Shown here piece by piece: positions 1-4,968 of a stretch of DNA of 64,000 bases (positions are counted from its first letter, which is position 1; each line of letters opens with the position of its first letter). The position numbers were made by a program, and so were the translations under genes. The notes below the pieces were generated by a model. The model worked only from the letters and a program-made list of their open reading frames with translations, was not told the DNA's origin and did no database searches. The stretch is from Candidatus Acidiferrum typicum (lineage in GTDB: Bacteria; Acidobacteriota; Terriglobia; Acidiferrales; UBA7541), in NCBI GenBank assembly GCA_025463055.1, contig JAOAPV010000027.1, forward strand, positions 1-64,000, written 5' to 3'.

Positions 1-495
1 GGCGGCGCCGGGCACGGTGGCGAGCGCGTCCGGAAGAGACACGAGCTGGCGCTGATCAATCTCCTCCCGAGCGATCACATCCACGGGAGCAGGAGTTTGG
101 CTGAGCTCTAAGGGCTGCGCGTTAGCAGTGACAACCACGTTTTCAGAGAGCTGCGCAATTTCCAGGCGCACATCGACTTTTCGCGACTCGGCAGGGGCGA
201 GCTGAAGGGGCAGGTCGCGAGGCACAAAGTCATTACGTTCAAACCGGACGCGATAGGTGCCCGGAGGAAGTGACAAAAAGTAGTTTCCTCCGACTACGGA
301 CGTGGTCTGGTATGTTTGCGACGAATTAGGTTCCTCCCGTGTAGCAAGTACACGCGCGGATGCGATGCCGTAGCCGGAAGCATCGGTGAGCTGACCGGAG
401 AGTTGAGCGCTGCGCGAATTGGACTGAGCTTGTGAGTCGAAACTTGAAGCGAGCAGCAAAAAGGCGAGAAACGCGAAACGAATCGTTGAGTTCAT
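1..495 (-). CDS. TonB-dependent outer-membrane receptor, N-terminal part (likely cobalamin receptor, BtuB role)
   Basis: The frame is open from an ATG at 495 to the window edge, giving 165 residues. It starts with a signal peptide (a hydrophobic FAFLAFLLLASS stretch followed by a QAQ cleavage-like site). A carboxypeptidase-regulatory-like beta-sandwich follows, with the typical GNYFLSLPPGTYRV stretch near residues 75-88. The last residues (IDQRQLVSLPDALATVPG) are the start of a TonB plug domain. The protein should import a ligand across the outer membrane using TonB energy. The substrate is inferred, not seen: a cobalamin riboswitch precedes the gene and btuFCD lie directly upstream, so vitamin B12 is the best guess. 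A Shine-Dalgarno GGAGGA lies at 501-506, next to a hairpin. The gene is incomplete only because the window ends. Confidence 0.88.
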   Translation of the reverse strand, partial: MNSTIRFAFLAFLLLASSFDSQAQSNSRSAQLSGQLTDASGYGIASARVLATREEPNSSQTYQTTSVVGGNYFLSLPPGTYRVRFERNDFVPRDLPLQLAPAESRKVDVRLEIAQLSENVVVTANAQPLELSQTPAPVDVIAREEIDQRQLVSLPDALATVPGAA

Positions 496-500
496 TTTTG

Positions 501-526
501 TCCTCCGCTCCCGCACGCGTGGGAGC
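501..526 (-). promoter_or_regulatory. Hairpin abutting the Shine-Dalgarno of the TonB receptor
   Basis: On the minus strand, six-base arms GCTCCC and GGGAGC (507-526) form a hairpin that ends directly at the GGAGGA ribosome binding site (501-506). No run of T follows. This fits a translation-controlling expression platform for the upstream cobalamin riboswitch. The switching mechanism is inferred. Confidence 0.5.
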
Positions 527-564
527 TTGAAGGTTGGCCTGGCGATGTGAATCGCACGGGCTGC

Positions 565-805
565 GAACTTCGCCGGTCTCCTGGCTTGGCGGGAAAGTGC
601 GGCCCTGATTGCGGGCCTGTGCGTGGCCTTCCCGCGACGCTGCCTGGCCTTTCCAGTGTGACCCTTGCCGGGTCGGCCAAGCGCTTCGCCGCAGTGGCCT
701 GCGCAGTGTGATTCCGCCGTACAGTCGCGCGTCGGCGACGGCTTTCCTGTTTTGCTTCTCGATTCGATCGAGAGCGGAACAAGTGCAACCCTTTAGGTTG
801 CCCGT
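565..805 (-). promoter_or_regulatory. Cobalamin riboswitch (RF00174-like) upstream of the TonB receptor
   Basis: Reading the minus strand, the conserved blocks of the B12 aptamer appear in order: an AGGAAA block, GCGCGACTGTACGGC (near 717-730), GCCACTG (near 692-700), GGGAAGGC (near 627-636) and the B12-box-like AAGCCAGGAGACCGGC (571-588). The element fills most of the otherwise gene-free interval 496-908 between btuD and the receptor gene. By family knowledge, adenosylcobalamin binding represses the downstream gene. Ends are approximate, and the 5' part is the least certain. Confidence 0.85.
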
Positions 806-908
806 CTTCCCGAGCACGAAGTTCGCGATGATTGTTGGGGGCCGAAGCCCGCTGTTGATTTCGGTGTGCCGCGAGTGCGTTGCGGCGCCAGGGTTTACGA
901 AAAAACTG

Positions 909-1775
909 CTACGACTGGGTAGGAAGCAAATTCACACGTGGACGACCGTTCGAGCCTAGCTCCACGGTGAGCGGCGTGTGGAAAACCTGTTCCAGTAAAT
1001 CGCGTTGATAAACGCTCGCGGGAGAACCGACCCGCAAGCTTTTGCCTTTTTGCAGCAACACAACCTGGTCGGCATATTCCGCAGCGAGGTTGAGTTCATG
1101 TGTGACGACGACAACTGTGTAGCGATTTTCCGCGGCTAATCGGCGCAACGTGGCGAGGAGATCGACTTGGGCCCCGATGTCGAGATGCAAGGTGGGCTCG
1201 TCGAGCAAGAGCAGCAGCGGCTGCTGGCACAAAGCTCGCGCAAGGATGACGCGCTGCCTTTCTCCCCCGGAAACCTCGTTCATCCAGCGATCGCTGAGAT
1301 CTTCCGCGCCGACTTGCGCGAGAGCGTTGCGGGCGATCAGGACATCATCTTCGTTTTCAAAGCGCAGCGTGCGCCCGTAGGGATGGCGGCCTTGCAGGAC
1401 GAACTCCCAAGCTCGTGCGGGAAAGAGCAGCGGAGTTTCTTGCTGCACCATAGCAATGCGCTGCGCGCGGGCTCGCGGCGCCAGTGTGTGCGTAACGAAA
1501 CCATCTAGCAGAACGCGGCCGGAGAGAGGCGCTAGAGCGCCGGCGATTAGTTTGAGCAGAGTGGATTTCCCGCTGGCATTGGGGCCAAGGATGGCGACGA
1601 TTTCGCCGGGACGAGCTTGAAAACTGTTGGCTTCGAGCGTGAAGAGCGGGGCTTGCGACGGATTGGCCGAGTAGGCGTAACTCACTTGCTCGACGCTGAG
1701 GCGAACTTCGCTCGCGGCGCGAGGAGCTTCGCCAAGATTGGGCCACGACGAGGAAGAATGCGCGGGGCTGCTCAT
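909..1775 (-). CDS. btuD: Cobalamin/iron-siderophore type ABC transporter ATP-binding protein
   Basis: This 288-aa cytoplasmic ATPase energises the BtuC-type permease encoded just upstream. Walker A GPNASGKS is at about 64-71, the signature VSGGERQ at about 168-174, Walker B LLLLLDEPTLHLD ends near 199 and the H-loop TH follows near residue 225. The frame stays open further upstream, but the ATG at 1775 overlaps the btuC stop by 4 bp (ATGA), which is typical of translational coupling. The N-terminal 20 residues are serine-rich and outside the domain. The family also serves haem and siderophore uptake. The cobalamin assignment rests on the two B12 riboswitches of the locus. Confidence 0.92.
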   Translation of the reverse strand: MSSPAHSSSSWPNLGEAPRAASEVRLSVEQVSYAYSANPSQAPLFTLEANSFQARPGEIVAILGPNASGKSTLLKLIAGALAPLSGRVLLDGFVTHTLAPRARAQRIAMVQQETPLLFPARAWEFVLQGRHPYGRTLRFENEDDVLIARNALAQVGAEDLSDRWMNEVSGGERQRVILARALCQQPLLLLLDEPTLHLDIGAQVDLLATLRRLAAENRYTVVVVTHELNLAAEYADQVVLLQKGKSLRVGSPASVYQRDLLEQVFHTPLTVELGSNGRPRVNLLPTQS

Positions 1776-2812
1776 GCGGATCCTCGACGCAGGAGATAGA
1801 TGAAAAGCGGAGCACCGGCGATTGCGGTCATGGCGCCCACCGGAAGCTCGGATGGCGCAACGACGGTACGGGCGAGCGTGTCCGCCAGGACCAAAGCGAT
1901 AGCCCCACCGAAAGCGGCGGTGGGCAGCAGCGTCCGGTGATCCGAGCCAAATAGCAGACGCATTACGTGTGGGACGAGAAGGCCGACGTAGCCAATGGCG
2001 CCACTGACGGAAACGGCCAGGCCGGTGAGAATCGATGCGGCGATGTAAACGACAAGGCGCACGCGTCGAACATCGACGCCGAGGTGCATGGCTTCTTTTT
2101 CGCCTGCGAGGAGCAAATTGAGATCGCCCGCGGTCGTATAGATGGCGCCAGCGGCGGCGAAGAAGCCGATTCCGAGAACCCAACGGAGGCTCGCCTGTAA
2201 CGAACTGGAGAGATCACCCATCAGCCAGAAGGCCATGCCGCGGAAATCGCGACCGCTGAGCGTAGTCATCAAGAACATGATGATGGCTGACAGAAAGGAG
2301 GCGCTGATGATGCCGGCAAGGAGCAGTGTGGCGCTGTCGATTTGCCCTTGGCGCTGACCGAGGAAGTAGACAGCGGCAATGGTGGCTGCGGCGCCGAGGA
2401 ATGCGCCAAACGGAGTAAAGAGTGCGGCGAGCCACACCGGTAACGCAAGATGCGGTTCGACGATAAGCGCGAGCACGGCGCCGAGGGCTGCGCCGCTGGA
2501 AACACCAAGCACATACGGGTCGGCAAGCGGATTTCGCAGCAAGGCTTGAAAGCTGGTACCCGCCACAGATAGAGAGGCGCCAACGACAATCGCGAGGAGA
2601 ATACGAGGCAGGCGAATTTCAATCACGATCATGCCGTAATCGCTCGAGAGCGCTTTCGTCTGGTGGAGGAGAACGCTAATTAGGTCGCGGCCGAGCCCGT
2701 ACAGGGAGACCGGAACGGCGCCGAGCTTGAGCGCAACAACGACGACAACAAAAAGGATGGCGGCCAGCAAGCTGCATTGCAGAAAGAGGCGTCGCAGCGT
2801 CAGCGGGCGCAT
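1772..2812 (-). CDS. btuC: FecCD/BtuC family ABC transporter permease
   Basis: This 346-aa polytopic inner-membrane protein has roughly ten hydrophobic helices, beginning with LLAAILFVVVVVALKLGAV near residue 17. Family landmarks are GASLSVAGTSFQALLRNPLADP (near 97-120) and the C-terminal GAIGYVGLLVPHVMRLLFGSDHR region followed by LPVGAMTAIAGAPLFIYLL. It forms the translocation path for the substrate delivered by the periplasmic binding protein. Its start overlaps the end of btuF by 13 bp and its stop overlaps the btuD start by 4 bp, so the three genes form a tight operon. Confidence 0.94.
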   Translation of the reverse strand: MRPLTLRRLFLQCSLLAAILFVVVVVALKLGAVPVSLYGLGRDLISVLLHQTKALSSDYGMIVIEIRLPRILLAIVVGASLSVAGTSFQALLRNPLADPYVLGVSSGAALGAVLALIVEPHLALPVWLAALFTPFGAFLGAAATIAAVYFLGQRQGQIDSATLLLAGIISASFLSAIIMFLMTTLSGRDFRGMAFWLMGDLSSSLQASLRWVLGIGFFAAAGAIYTTAGDLNLLLAGEKEAMHLGVDVRRVRLVVYIAASILTGLAVSVSGAIGYVGLLVPHVMRLLFGSDHRTLLPTAAFGGAIALVLADTLARTVVAPSELPVGAMTAIAGAPLFIYLLRRGSA

Positions 2813-3870
2813 AATTCTTCCTCCGATGGTGCGACGGGTTCGTTTAGTGACAGGAGCGAACTGGGCCGCGGAGACAGCGCTGGCCCTGGCGGCTTCGATT
2901 GTTCCTTGTCGTTCTGTGGTTTGTCGGTGAAGGCCTCCGGGTGCAGTTGGCGAGCCAGGTCTTCAACAGCCGAGACAAGGCGAGGAGCCGGACGGTTGAT
3001 GGCATCGTTGATCGTGGCGTAGCGACGATTGCGCACGGCATTCAGCAGTCGCCAGCCAGGAAGGCCAGCCAGGGCATCGGCGCTATGTGGCGTTGCGCCA
3101 GAATGCGATTCCACAAAGATTAGAAATTCCGGCTGCAGCCGGACGACTTCCTCGAGATTTATTTGCGGCCAGTTCTGCGACGAATCGATGACGGAAACAG
3201 CACCGGCGTGACGCAATGCGTCTGCGATGAACGTATCGTTGCCAATAGAGATTAGCGGTTCGGTCCAGACGATGAACAGAACGCGGCGAGGAGATAGCGA
3301 AGCTATTCGCTCGTGGAGAACCGATACCTGATGTTCGAGATCGGCGGTGAGCGCGCTGCCTGTATCCGAGGCGCCGAGCATGTCGGCAAGACGAGCTATC
3401 GAAGCGATTATCGCGTCAACGGTATGAGGATCGGTGGCATACGAAGGTATTCCGATATCTGCGAGGGCTTGTACTGTTTCGGGGCGATTTAGACTCTTGG
3501 TCACCAGCACAAGGTCTGGGTGTAAGGCGGCGATAGCTTCGATGCTAGGATTGACGGCACCGCCGACCTTCGTTTTTTGCTGCGCTTCTGCCGGGAAATC
3601 GCAATAGTCTGTGTCTCCGACGAGGTGGTCCTGCAAGCCAAGAGCGTAGATCGTCTCCGTAAGGTTCGGTGCCAGCGAGACGATGCGCTCTATAGACTGC
3701 GGTACACGAATAATGCGGCCGATTTCGTCTGTGACTTGGCGATAGGGCGGATGCGTCTGGAGCGGTGGTGCAGTTGCTTGGGAATGGCAAATTGCCGCGC
3801 TGGAAAATAGCACGGCGTGCGCGGTGAAAGGAACAGCTCTTAGCGTCCAATGAATGAAGATCCGCAACAC
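2800..3870 (-). CDS. btuF: Periplasmic cobalamin-binding protein of the ABC transporter
   Basis: This BtuF/FepB-type helical-backbone binding protein has about 356 aa from the GTG at 3870. A GGGGA sequence sits four bases before that GTG. An in-frame TTG at 3900 would add ten residues but lies against the terminator. After a signal-like segment (AVPFTAHAVLFSSAAICHSQA) come DEIGRIIRVPQSIERIVSLAPNLTETIYALG and LHPDLVLVTKSLN, typical of this family. A proline- and serine-rich tail of about 40 residues follows the domain. The gene is first in btuFCD and is preceded by a cobalamin riboswitch and an intrinsic terminator, so it is probably switched off at transcription when B12 is plentiful. Confidence 0.88.
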   Translation of the reverse strand: MLRIFIHWTLRAVPFTAHAVLFSSAAICHSQATAPPLQTHPPYRQVTDEIGRIIRVPQSIERIVSLAPNLTETIYALGLQDHLVGDTDYCDFPAEAQQKTKVGGAVNPSIEAIAALHPDLVLVTKSLNRPETVQALADIGIPSYATDPHTVDAIIASIARLADMLGASDTGSALTADLEHQVSVLHERIASLSPRRVLFIVWTEPLISIGNDTFIADALRHAGAVSVIDSSQNWPQINLEEVVRLQPEFLIFVESHSGATPHSADALAGLPGWRLLNAVRNRRYATINDAINRPAPRLVSAVEDLARQLHPEAFTDKPQNDKEQSKPPGPALSPRPSSLLSLNEPVAPSEEELCAR

Positions 3871-3902
3871 GAGTTCCCCGCTGCGAGAAGGGTACGGCAA
3901 CG

Positions 3903-3932
3903 AAAAAGCCCCATGCGAGTGGCGATGGGGCT
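3903..3932 (-). terminator. Riboswitch-linked intrinsic terminator before btuF
   Basis: On the minus strand, AGCCCCAT and ATGGGGCT arms form a stem closed by a 14-base loop and followed by TTTTT. It lies between the cobalamin aptamer and btuF, where a transcription-terminating expression platform would be expected. Confidence 0.8.
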
Positions 3933-3964
3933 CAAAGACGGCGCCTCTTCTCGCGAAAAGCGCA

Positions 3965-4084
3965 GTCCCCGCGGCACGGGAGGGTAGCCTGGCTTACGGC
4001 TTTTCAGCCGATTACAGTGGCGGGACCGCGGCCGATTCGCACGGCCTTCCCCGCTTCCCTTGCCTGCAAAAAATGAACCCCGAG
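3965..4084 (-). promoter_or_regulatory. Cobalamin riboswitch upstream of btuFCD
   Basis: The minus strand carries the canonical core: GGGGAAGGCCGTGCGAATCGG, then GGTCCCGCCACTGTAATCGGC and the AAGCCAGGCTACC box. The variable P6-P8 portion is short. This block and the terminator explain most of the 273 bp between btuF and the crotonase-family gene. The aptamer senses adenosylcobalamin in known members. Confidence 0.93.
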
Positions 4085-4143
4085 TGTATGCTGCGCTACA
4101 AACAGAGTCAAATGAGCCGCTCCGGCGTTATCTATTTTTTGCA

Positions 4144-4968
4144 TCAGCGATTCTTCCAGTTGGGCTTGCGCTTTTCCACCAGGGCACGAAGACCCTCTTG
4201 CGAGTCTTCCAGGCGATAAAGTTCGTTGAGAAAAATCCCCATCGATTTTTTCAGCCCATCGCGGAGGGAGAGTCCCATGCCTCCGAGGATGGCTTTTTTG
4301 GCCATGGCGAGAACTGGACCGGACTGCGCGGTGATGCGTGTGACGAGCTCGTTGACGGCGGCTTCGAGCTTGGCTTCGGGGACCAGACGGGTGACCAAGC
4401 CAAGTTCGAGCGCGCGTTCGGCGGTGATAGCTTCGCCAGTCAAAATGATTTCAAGAGCGCGCTTTGGTCCGACGAGGAATGGCAGAATTGTGGACGCGAG
4501 AGGGGGGAAAACACCGATGGTGATTTCGGGTTGCGCGAAGCGGGCCTTGGGTGTGGCGATGACAAGATCGCCGAAAGCGGCTAGCTCGGCGCCTCCGCCG
4601 ATCGCCGGGCCGTTTACAACGCAGAGCACGGGCTTGCTGACCTCAAGCATTGCGGCGAAGGCGGCCTGAAACGCGTCCAGCATCTGGTAGACGCGTTGCG
4701 CGGTGTATTCCCCGATATCCACCCCGCCGCTAAAGACTTTGCACGCCGAATCGATTGTGATCAACTTGGTGTCGTCGCGCTCGCCGGCAAAAACGATGCC
4801 GTCGGCAATTTCACGGAGCATGGCTTCGTTGAGCAGGTTGTGGTCCGGACGATTGAGGGTGAGGTGGGCGACGCCATCTTCAATCCGAAATTTTACGAAC
4901 TCGAATTCTTCCGGCTTGCGACGTATTGCTCCGGTTGTGAATTGCTCCGCGATGACCGTCTCCACCAT
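4144..4968 (-). CDS. Enoyl-CoA hydratase/isomerase family protein
   Basis: This 274-aa crotonase-fold enzyme acts on acyl-CoA thioesters. The oxyanion-hole segment is VFSGGVDIGEY near residue 80, and GPAIGGGAELAAFGDLV near 121-137 supplies one catalytic-type glutamate. A second glutamate is present in FAQPEITIG, so both acid/base positions of true hydratases are kept. The C-terminal MGIFLNELYRLEDSQEGLRALVEKRKP is the usual trimerisation end. Shine-Dalgarno CAGGAGG lies upstream of the ATG at 4968. Substrate is not fixed by sequence. The protein resembles short-chain hydratases, and cyclohexa-1,5-diene-carbonyl-CoA hydratase-like proteins are another possibility. Neighbours give no pathway. 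Confidence 0.85.
   Translation of the reverse strand: MVETVIAEQFTTGAIRRKPEEFEFVKFRIEDGVAHLTLNRPDHNLLNEAMLREIADGIVFAGERDDTKLITIDSACKVFSGGVDIGEYTAQRVYQMLDAFQAAFAAMLEVSKPVLCVVNGPAIGGGAELAAFGDLVIATPKARFAQPEITIGVFPPLASTILPFLVGPKRALEIILTGEAITAERALELGLVTRLVPEAKLEAAVNELVTRITAQSGPVLAMAKKAILGGMGLSLRDGLKKSMGIFLNELYRLEDSQEGLRALVEKRKPNWKNR

Follow-up and report, generated by a model that had tools for sequence, protein, structure and literature searches.

Two cobalamin riboswitches with different expression platforms, probably in series on one mRNA, in a putative B12-uptake operon of Candidatus Acidiferrum typicum

A putative vitamin B12 uptake locus lies at the start of contig JAOAPV010000027.1 of Candidatus Acidiferrum typicum (Acidobacteriota; assembly GCA_025463055.1), of which positions 1–64,000 were analysed (64,000 nucleotides, hereafter the window). 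Read 5' to 3' on the minus strand, the locus consists of a sigma-70-like promoter, a first cobalamin riboswitch aptamer (A1), a hairpin (P13), an intrinsic terminator, btuF, btuC, btuD, a second aptamer (A2), a hairpin at the Shine–Dalgarno (SD) sequence and the gene for a TonB-dependent receptor. Comparison with related genomes makes it likely that btuF, btuC, btuD and the receptor gene form one B12-uptake operon, and that its mRNA carries both riboswitches in series. That the two riboswitches have different expression platforms, conserved in the loci compared, is well supported by the sequences.

In a scan of the whole window with the Rfam models (cmscan), only two matches exceeded the curated thresholds. 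Each is to the cobalamin riboswitch family RF00174 and lies on the minus strand: A1 at 3962–4098 (55.5 bits, E 4.6e-11) and A2 at 566–823, between btuD and the receptor gene (40.1 bits, E 1.2e-6). They are separated by 3.14 kb, which agrees with the original prediction of two B12 aptamers about 3.2 kb apart on one strand, the coordinates of which also hold. The gathering threshold for RF00174 is 31.5 bits; A2 scores 34.7 and 33.7 bits under other search settings, so that the failure of A2 to reach the threshold, foreseen in the original prediction as grounds for rejection, did not occur. These are the only two RF00174 matches across the window's own genome, and both aptamers are presumably of class Cbl-I, as judged from a CCAGGAGACC-like motif. 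A weak match to RF02837 (20.3 bits, threshold 49.5) was below threshold and was disregarded.

RF00174 is present in all 36 genomes of the genus, in all 91 genomes sampled from the class and in 58 of the 61 genomes of the family; it was not found in the remaining three (G008, G025 and G042, of 65, 59 and 90% completeness). Among the matches listed for the 73 class genomes outside the order, 45 genomes have one and 28 have two to seven. The family search gave 117 hits, of which 114 were used, the single hits of G021, G036 and G040 being excluded. Of 48 two-hit family contigs that were fetched, 43 carry the pair on one strand, 2.5–3.8 kb apart. These 43 were combined with 18 further loci from the genus (G073 and G066, with one hit, and G065 and G077, with hits on different contigs, were excluded), and a single locus each from a different family of the same order (G147) and a different family of the class (G089), giving a set of 63 two-aptamer loci. 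Pairs were selected by spacing, and genomes with hits on separate contigs or at other distances are not counted. The order A1–btuF–btuC–btuD–A2–TonB receptor is found in all 63. The two-switch design is widespread in the family. The same arrangement of genes and aptamers is also present outside it, in one genome from a second family of the taxonomic order and one genome from a further family of the class. A1 is compact, the large peripheral arm of P6 being absent; a loose regular expression detects this arm in 12 of the 63 A1 aptamers versus all 63 A2 aptamers. The five family contigs excluded for other spacing are of two kinds. In three, from one genus of the family (L040 of G007, L054 of G020 and L064 of G030), the pairs are about 4.7 kb rather than 3.1 kb apart, and in the other two (L035, G003:C50; L093, G057:C314) they lie on one strand, 0.2 and 0.7 kb apart, and may be true tandems.

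The two aptamers are followed by different structures. Downstream of A1, at 3903–3933, there is an intrinsic terminator, consisting of a hairpin (3933–3908) and a U tract (3907–3903), with the sequence GAGCCCCAU-CGCCACUCGC-AUGGGGC-UUUUU. With a strict definition of a terminator, namely a hairpin of −9 kcal/mol or lower immediately 5' of TTTTT, one is present after A1 in 60 of the 63 loci (shuffled sequences, 71 of 1260) and after A2 in none of the 63 (shuffled sequences, 1 of 1260). The three loci missed at A1 (G053, G062 and G147) carry looser terminators by eye. A looser scan found a terminator after A1 in 63/63 loci, together with 212 of 630 shuffles, and was dropped in favour of the strict scan because of this high rate. 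An earlier scan of 43 loci over a shorter region had placed terminators at 40 A1 and two A2 aptamers. The general terminator scan accepts loops of 3–8 nt and misses the A1 terminator, the loop of which is 10 nt. For comparison, single aptamers were read from other families; a scan of the kind applied to A1 and A2 gave a terminator in four of these 20.

Between A2 and the receptor gene the window contains no terminator, and the leader forms a predicted ribosome-site hairpin (502–533) in which CCUUC (533–529) pairs with the SD sequence GGAGG (506–502), with the P13 stem GCUCCC/GGGAGC between. Its calculated stability is −17.3 kcal/mol (z −1.86). The alignment of 61 leaders (without G147 and G089, which have divergent A2 leaders) has 95.1% of its SD-arm and P13 cells paired, compared with 59–74% in slid controls, and at least 4 nt of the SD are paired in 59 of the 61 when the segment is folded alone. 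The intrinsic terminator originally placed after the btuF-side aptamer, and the proposal that the two leaders end differently, are thus borne out by folding and terminator scanning. The description of A2 as followed only by a hairpin touching the SD was right in that there is no terminator, but understated the hairpin, which pairs the SD itself. Two observations count against this assignment of A2. The looser scan puts a terminator after A2 in two of the 63 loci (G011 and G018; shuffles 18/630), and the A2 hairpin shows only weak covariation, with two pairs changed on both sides, a number reached by 266 of 500 shuffles; the latter is because the hairpin hardly varies.

One sigma-70-like scoring scheme was applied before both aptamers. 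A score of at least 9.5 was reached before A1 in 54 of the 63 loci (0.95 expected) and before A2 in none (0.7 expected); at a score of at least 9 the counts were 57 (3.4 expected) and two (2.65 expected), respectively. Within 400 nt upstream of A2 a score of at least 9.5 was absent from all 62 loci scanned (2.2 expected). In the window, the A1 promoter is TTGACT-17-TACACT at 4083–4111, overlapped by the 5' end of A1 as called by Rfam. It is the sole promoter-like site on either strand in 450–4200, a result that is not significant alone (shuffle mean 0.9). A strict terminator separates btuD from A2 in only one of 62 loci (G005), and the distance from the btuD stop codon to the A2 core has a median of 109 nt (range 25–983). 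As no A2 promoter is detected above chance, and the btuD–A2 interval is almost always free of a terminator, A2 is most probably internal to the btu operon. The overlaps of btuF with btuC and of btuC with btuD in the window also speak for a shared transcript. The receptor would then be gated twice, at A1 with the whole operon and at A2 alone. The original prediction had assigned transcriptional control to the inner-membrane system and translational control to the receptor; the platforms do differ, but the receptor is probably on the same mRNA as btuFCD and under both switches.

Some of the data are unfavourable to a single transcript. The gap between btuD and the A2 core is 983 nt in G089 and exceeds 240 nt in seven other loci. 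In class members of other families, only 6 of 20 single aptamers have a promoter score of at least 9.5 (0.75 expected), so the promoter test is of limited sensitivity, and a promoter of another type may be present before A2. The alternative is that there are two separate units, with btuFCD under termination at A1 and the receptor gene transcribed from a promoter of its own and controlled by A2 in translation alone. This would fit the difference in platforms that the original prediction had noted, the fact that A2 is a complete leader by itself, the terminator-like hairpin of G005 and the long gap of G089. We nevertheless consider it distinctly unlikely, given the contrast in promoter scores between A1 and A2, which extends to the 400 nt upstream of A2, and the 61 of 62 loci without a strict terminator after btuD. 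At the exceptional locus (L038, G005) the receptor gene may be a separate unit. The pair is not a tandem riboswitch, with adjacent aptamers in one leader, as three genes intervene.

Both aptamers are predicted to bind B12 and to switch expression off when it is bound. A1, directly behind the only promoter seen, would attenuate transcription: in the B12-bound state, L5 would hold loop L13, the terminator would form and expression of the whole operon would fall. The hairpin P13 (3941–3963, with L13, CGCGAGA, at 3955–3949) is well conserved as a pairing. Over 59 aligned A1 leaders (without G053, G062 and G147, which lack a strict terminator, and G089) all seven of its pairs vary on both sides and 96.6% of cells are paired; folded alone, the P13 of the window does not surpass shuffled sequences (z 0.04). 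For P13 and the terminator together, 93.9% of cells are paired, compared with 45–63% in slid controls, and nine of 12 pairs show two-sided changes. The candidate kissing partner of L13, L5 (UCCCGC, 4020–4025), offers only three contiguous pairs.

A possible route from A1 to the terminator is an antiterminator in which L13 would pair with the loop of the terminator and with its 3' arm, in competition with the terminator. In the window, CUCGC in the terminator loop (3915–3919) could form such a contact, albeit a weak one, with GCGAG of L13 (3954–3950). Across the loci, L13 is mostly CGCGAGA and the terminator loop mostly retains UCUCG beside the 3' arm, while the other loop bases vary. The pairing is present in 93.0% of cells over 59 loci versus 28–70% in slid controls. 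In one lineage (G031, G012, G037 and G023) L13 is CGCGGCCA, and the terminator loops retain four to five pairs with it. At least six pairs between L13 and the terminator loop are possible in 38 of 59 loci, compared with 30% of shuffles, although shuffling is a poor control for loops as short as these. Such an antiterminator needs the L13 bases and would therefore compete with the L5–L13 kissing contact.

The energetics are less favourable to an L13-based antiterminator. In the window it has five pairs and reaches −16.9 kcal/mol, as against −33.8 kcal/mol for P13 plus terminator; under the pairs of the alignment the values are −7.9 and −32.5 kcal/mol. Of 56 loci, 11 favour it over the terminator state, and in 26 it is better or within 5 kcal/mol. 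Two-sided changes are few (two pairs, matched by 37 of 500 shuffles). In addition, most loci allow only three contiguous pairs between L5 and L13 of A1 (mean 3.1), and A1 L5 reaches an equal mean with the L13 of A2, so complementarity lends the A1 kissing contact no support. On the sequences, the chances for and against this antiterminator appear to be about even. The A1 terminator might instead be switched by another fold or by kinetics, with UCUCG serving, for example, in a loop–loop contact that aids termination. This explanation, which has only a slightly smaller chance of being correct than not, would accommodate both the scarcity of compensatory changes and an antiterminator that, in the window, falls short of the terminator state by 17 kcal/mol; it leaves less well explained why the pairing of L13 with the terminator loop exceeds the slid controls and why the loop bases outside UCUCG vary. 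A second partner for L13 was sought between the terminator and the btuF start. The sequence CUUCUCGC (window 3879–3895), just upstream of the btuF SD, might form a pairing of eight bases with L13/P13 of A1. This candidate was not convincing family-wide, with at least six pairs between L13 and this stretch in 14 of 59 loci compared with about 10% of shuffles.

A2, in the operon after btuD, would act on translation. B12 bound to A2 would bring L5 into a kissing contact with L13 and so stabilize the hairpin, the outer strand of which pairs with the receptor SD. Here L5 (ACGCGCG, 726–732) is complementary to L13 (ACGCGUGC, 520–513), with six contiguous pairs in the window, one of them G–U. At least five contiguous pairs (G–U allowed) are available in 57 of 58 measurable loci, which is a statement about complementarity only. 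A caution is that the mean for A2 L5 with its own L13 (5.09) exceeds that with the L13 of A1 (4.25) by a modest margin. A2 may also have an effect on transcription, if untranslated receptor mRNA is ended by Rho inside the gene. The Escherichia coli btuB riboswitch, which is of the ribosome-site-hairpin type (PMC10653944), is listed in PMC12121620 with condition-dependent transcription termination. By analogy, termination of this kind at A2 is possible but rather improbable, and it would be compatible with two switches in series.

The net effect of the proposed arrangement would be that the receptor is gated twice and the inner-membrane system once. The fuller scheme, in which one mRNA is controlled at its head in transcription and at an intercistronic switch in receptor translation, the receptor responds more steeply than the importer, and seven loop bases of A1 are contested by the kissing loop and the antiterminator, is a proposition that could as easily be wrong as right.

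A2 of the window departs from the measurable loci outside its genus in its loop L4, which is enlarged to 60 nt (742–801) and contains extra hairpins. L4 is presumably a T-loop that docks on L6. It measures 7 nt in all 30 measurable A2 loci outside the genus of the window; within the genus it is 30–82 nt, with varied hairpins, in 26 of 30 loci and 7 nt in the other four. L4 was not measurable in G075, G147 and G089. The lengths are from a dedicated measurement, as a generic L4 finder was unreliable (it gave three long A1 values) and was not used. Enlargement of L4 raises the question of whether these A2 aptamers have lost or altered ligand binding, an interpretation that would also suit the A2 of G057, just under the threshold at 30.5 bits. 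It seems very improbable, since P13, the SD pairing and L5–L13 complementarity are kept in the genus loci, and 72 of the 73 RF00174 matches listed in the genus search, A2 included, exceed the cut-off.

The hairpin GCAACC..GGUUGCACUU of the A2 L4 was considered as a mobile genome-wide repeat, and this was rejected as far as tested. The pattern GCAACC..GGUUGC occurs once in the window's own genome, in A2; a related pattern was found in two of 15 genus genomes, both times inside A2 matches, and a third (up to three mismatches) in two of 10 genomes, both within A2, other hairpin types not being searched genome-wide. More than one hairpin of the GCAACC..GGUUGC type was reported by the finder in the A2 of the window's genome (G000) and of G053. 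The A2 aptamers of L089 (G053) and L094 (G057) contain several similar GCRACCCGG..GGGUYGC hairpins with ACUUGA-like tails, identified partly by eye, as though one hairpin had been duplicated inside the aptamer.

The genes between and after the aptamers are of the kinds that make up a B12 uptake operon, namely a periplasmic protein, a permease, an ATPase and a TonB receptor, the first three with matches to the corresponding Pfam families. btuF (2800–3870, minus strand, as are all of these genes) encodes a putative periplasmic B12-binding protein with a match to Peripla_BP_2 (PF01497, E 5.3e-31 on a longer frame, 2800–3900); a GTG start is suggested by an SD-like GGGGA upstream. Its end overlaps btuC (1772–2812), a putative permease of the FecCD family (PF01032, E 4.5e-86), which in turn overlaps btuD (909–1775), a putative ATP-binding cassette ATPase (PF00005, E 1e-30), by 4 nt. 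The closest named match to the window BtuC is from a metagenome-assembled genome of 'Candidatus Acidoferrales' (90% identity). Only the 5' part of the receptor gene is present (1–495, ATG at 495–493), because the window begins at the contig start. Its product has an N-terminal CarboxypepD_reg domain (PF13620) followed by a TonB plug match (PF07715) just below the Pfam cut-off (23.3 versus 23.9). The top NCBIfam match of this fragment is the TonB-B12 family TIGR01779, below its cut-off, and the full receptor of a relative likewise has TIGR01779 as its top match (E 1.9e-62), again below cut-off. Neither the window proteins nor this receptor reached the NCBIfam equivalog cut-offs for BtuC, BtuF, BtuD or BtuB, and the assignment of B12 as the substrate therefore rests on the riboswitches. 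At one related locus (L100) the frame after the receptor gene reads, by eye, like what we take to be GatB.

Upstream of A1, on the same strand, is a putative enoyl-CoA hydratase gene (window 4144–4968; PF00378, E 1.1e-45). Just past the window, at 68284–69024 of the same contig (G000:C47), there is an activation domain of B12-dependent methionine synthase (MetH; PF02965, E 1.1e-47). For the corrin-ring enzyme CobI/CbiL, only sub-threshold matches were found in the window's own genome (best 53.7 bits, cut-off 163.25). This one marker suggests that the organism depends on B12 uptake.

With both aptamers above the gathering threshold and followed by genes of B12-uptake type, A1 and A2 resemble known cobalamin riboswitches. 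The E. coli btuB riboswitch heads its own gene; A2, in contrast, appears inside a btuFCD operon behind a second B12 riboswitch. In PMC10653944, the kissing loop of E. coli btuB is described as stabilizing P13, leading to a ribosome-site hairpin before the gene for a TonB B12 receptor, and the A2 hairpin that holds the SD is of that type. A1 can be compared with the transcriptional corrinoid riboswitch of Priestia megaterium metE, in which, according to the same source, three functional L5–L13 pairs are sufficient and the antiterminator is formed with the 3' side of P13 (PMC10653944). P13 and a terminator are present in both; the kissing loop and antiterminator of the metE riboswitch have proposed counterparts in A1. 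They differ in that, in A1, L13 itself would pair with the loop and 3' arm of the terminator.

Other systems with two riboswitches are known. According to PMC12121620, tenA of Bacillus anthracis is preceded by tandem thiamin pyrophosphate riboswitches, both transcriptional in vitro. As in the present locus, two aptamers of one class precede one gene; those of tenA are in tandem and of one platform mode, whereas A1 and A2 have three genes between them and differing platforms. The same source reports from TaRTLEt that, in Gram-negative taxa, cobalamin riboswitches that are transcriptionally active are nearly always accompanied by others without sign of such activity (PMC12121620). Mixed modes in one Gram-negative genome have thus already been reported, and the mixture itself is not new. 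In PMC11124144, two riboswitches are placed before metE and near cbiKP. No open-access paper describing two cobalamin riboswitches in series within one operon was found by title or abstract. The parts are of known kinds; their arrangement in series looks to be a novel variation.

The locus would allow a transcriptional and a translational platform for the same ligand to be compared as a matched pair within one operon, and the natural enlargement of L4 in the genus is a handle on how much change the aptamer core tolerates. If the two switches do act in series, a rise in B12 should repress the receptor more steeply than the importer. This would be a natural multiplication circuit fed by one ligand and conserved in a group of soil Acidobacteriota.

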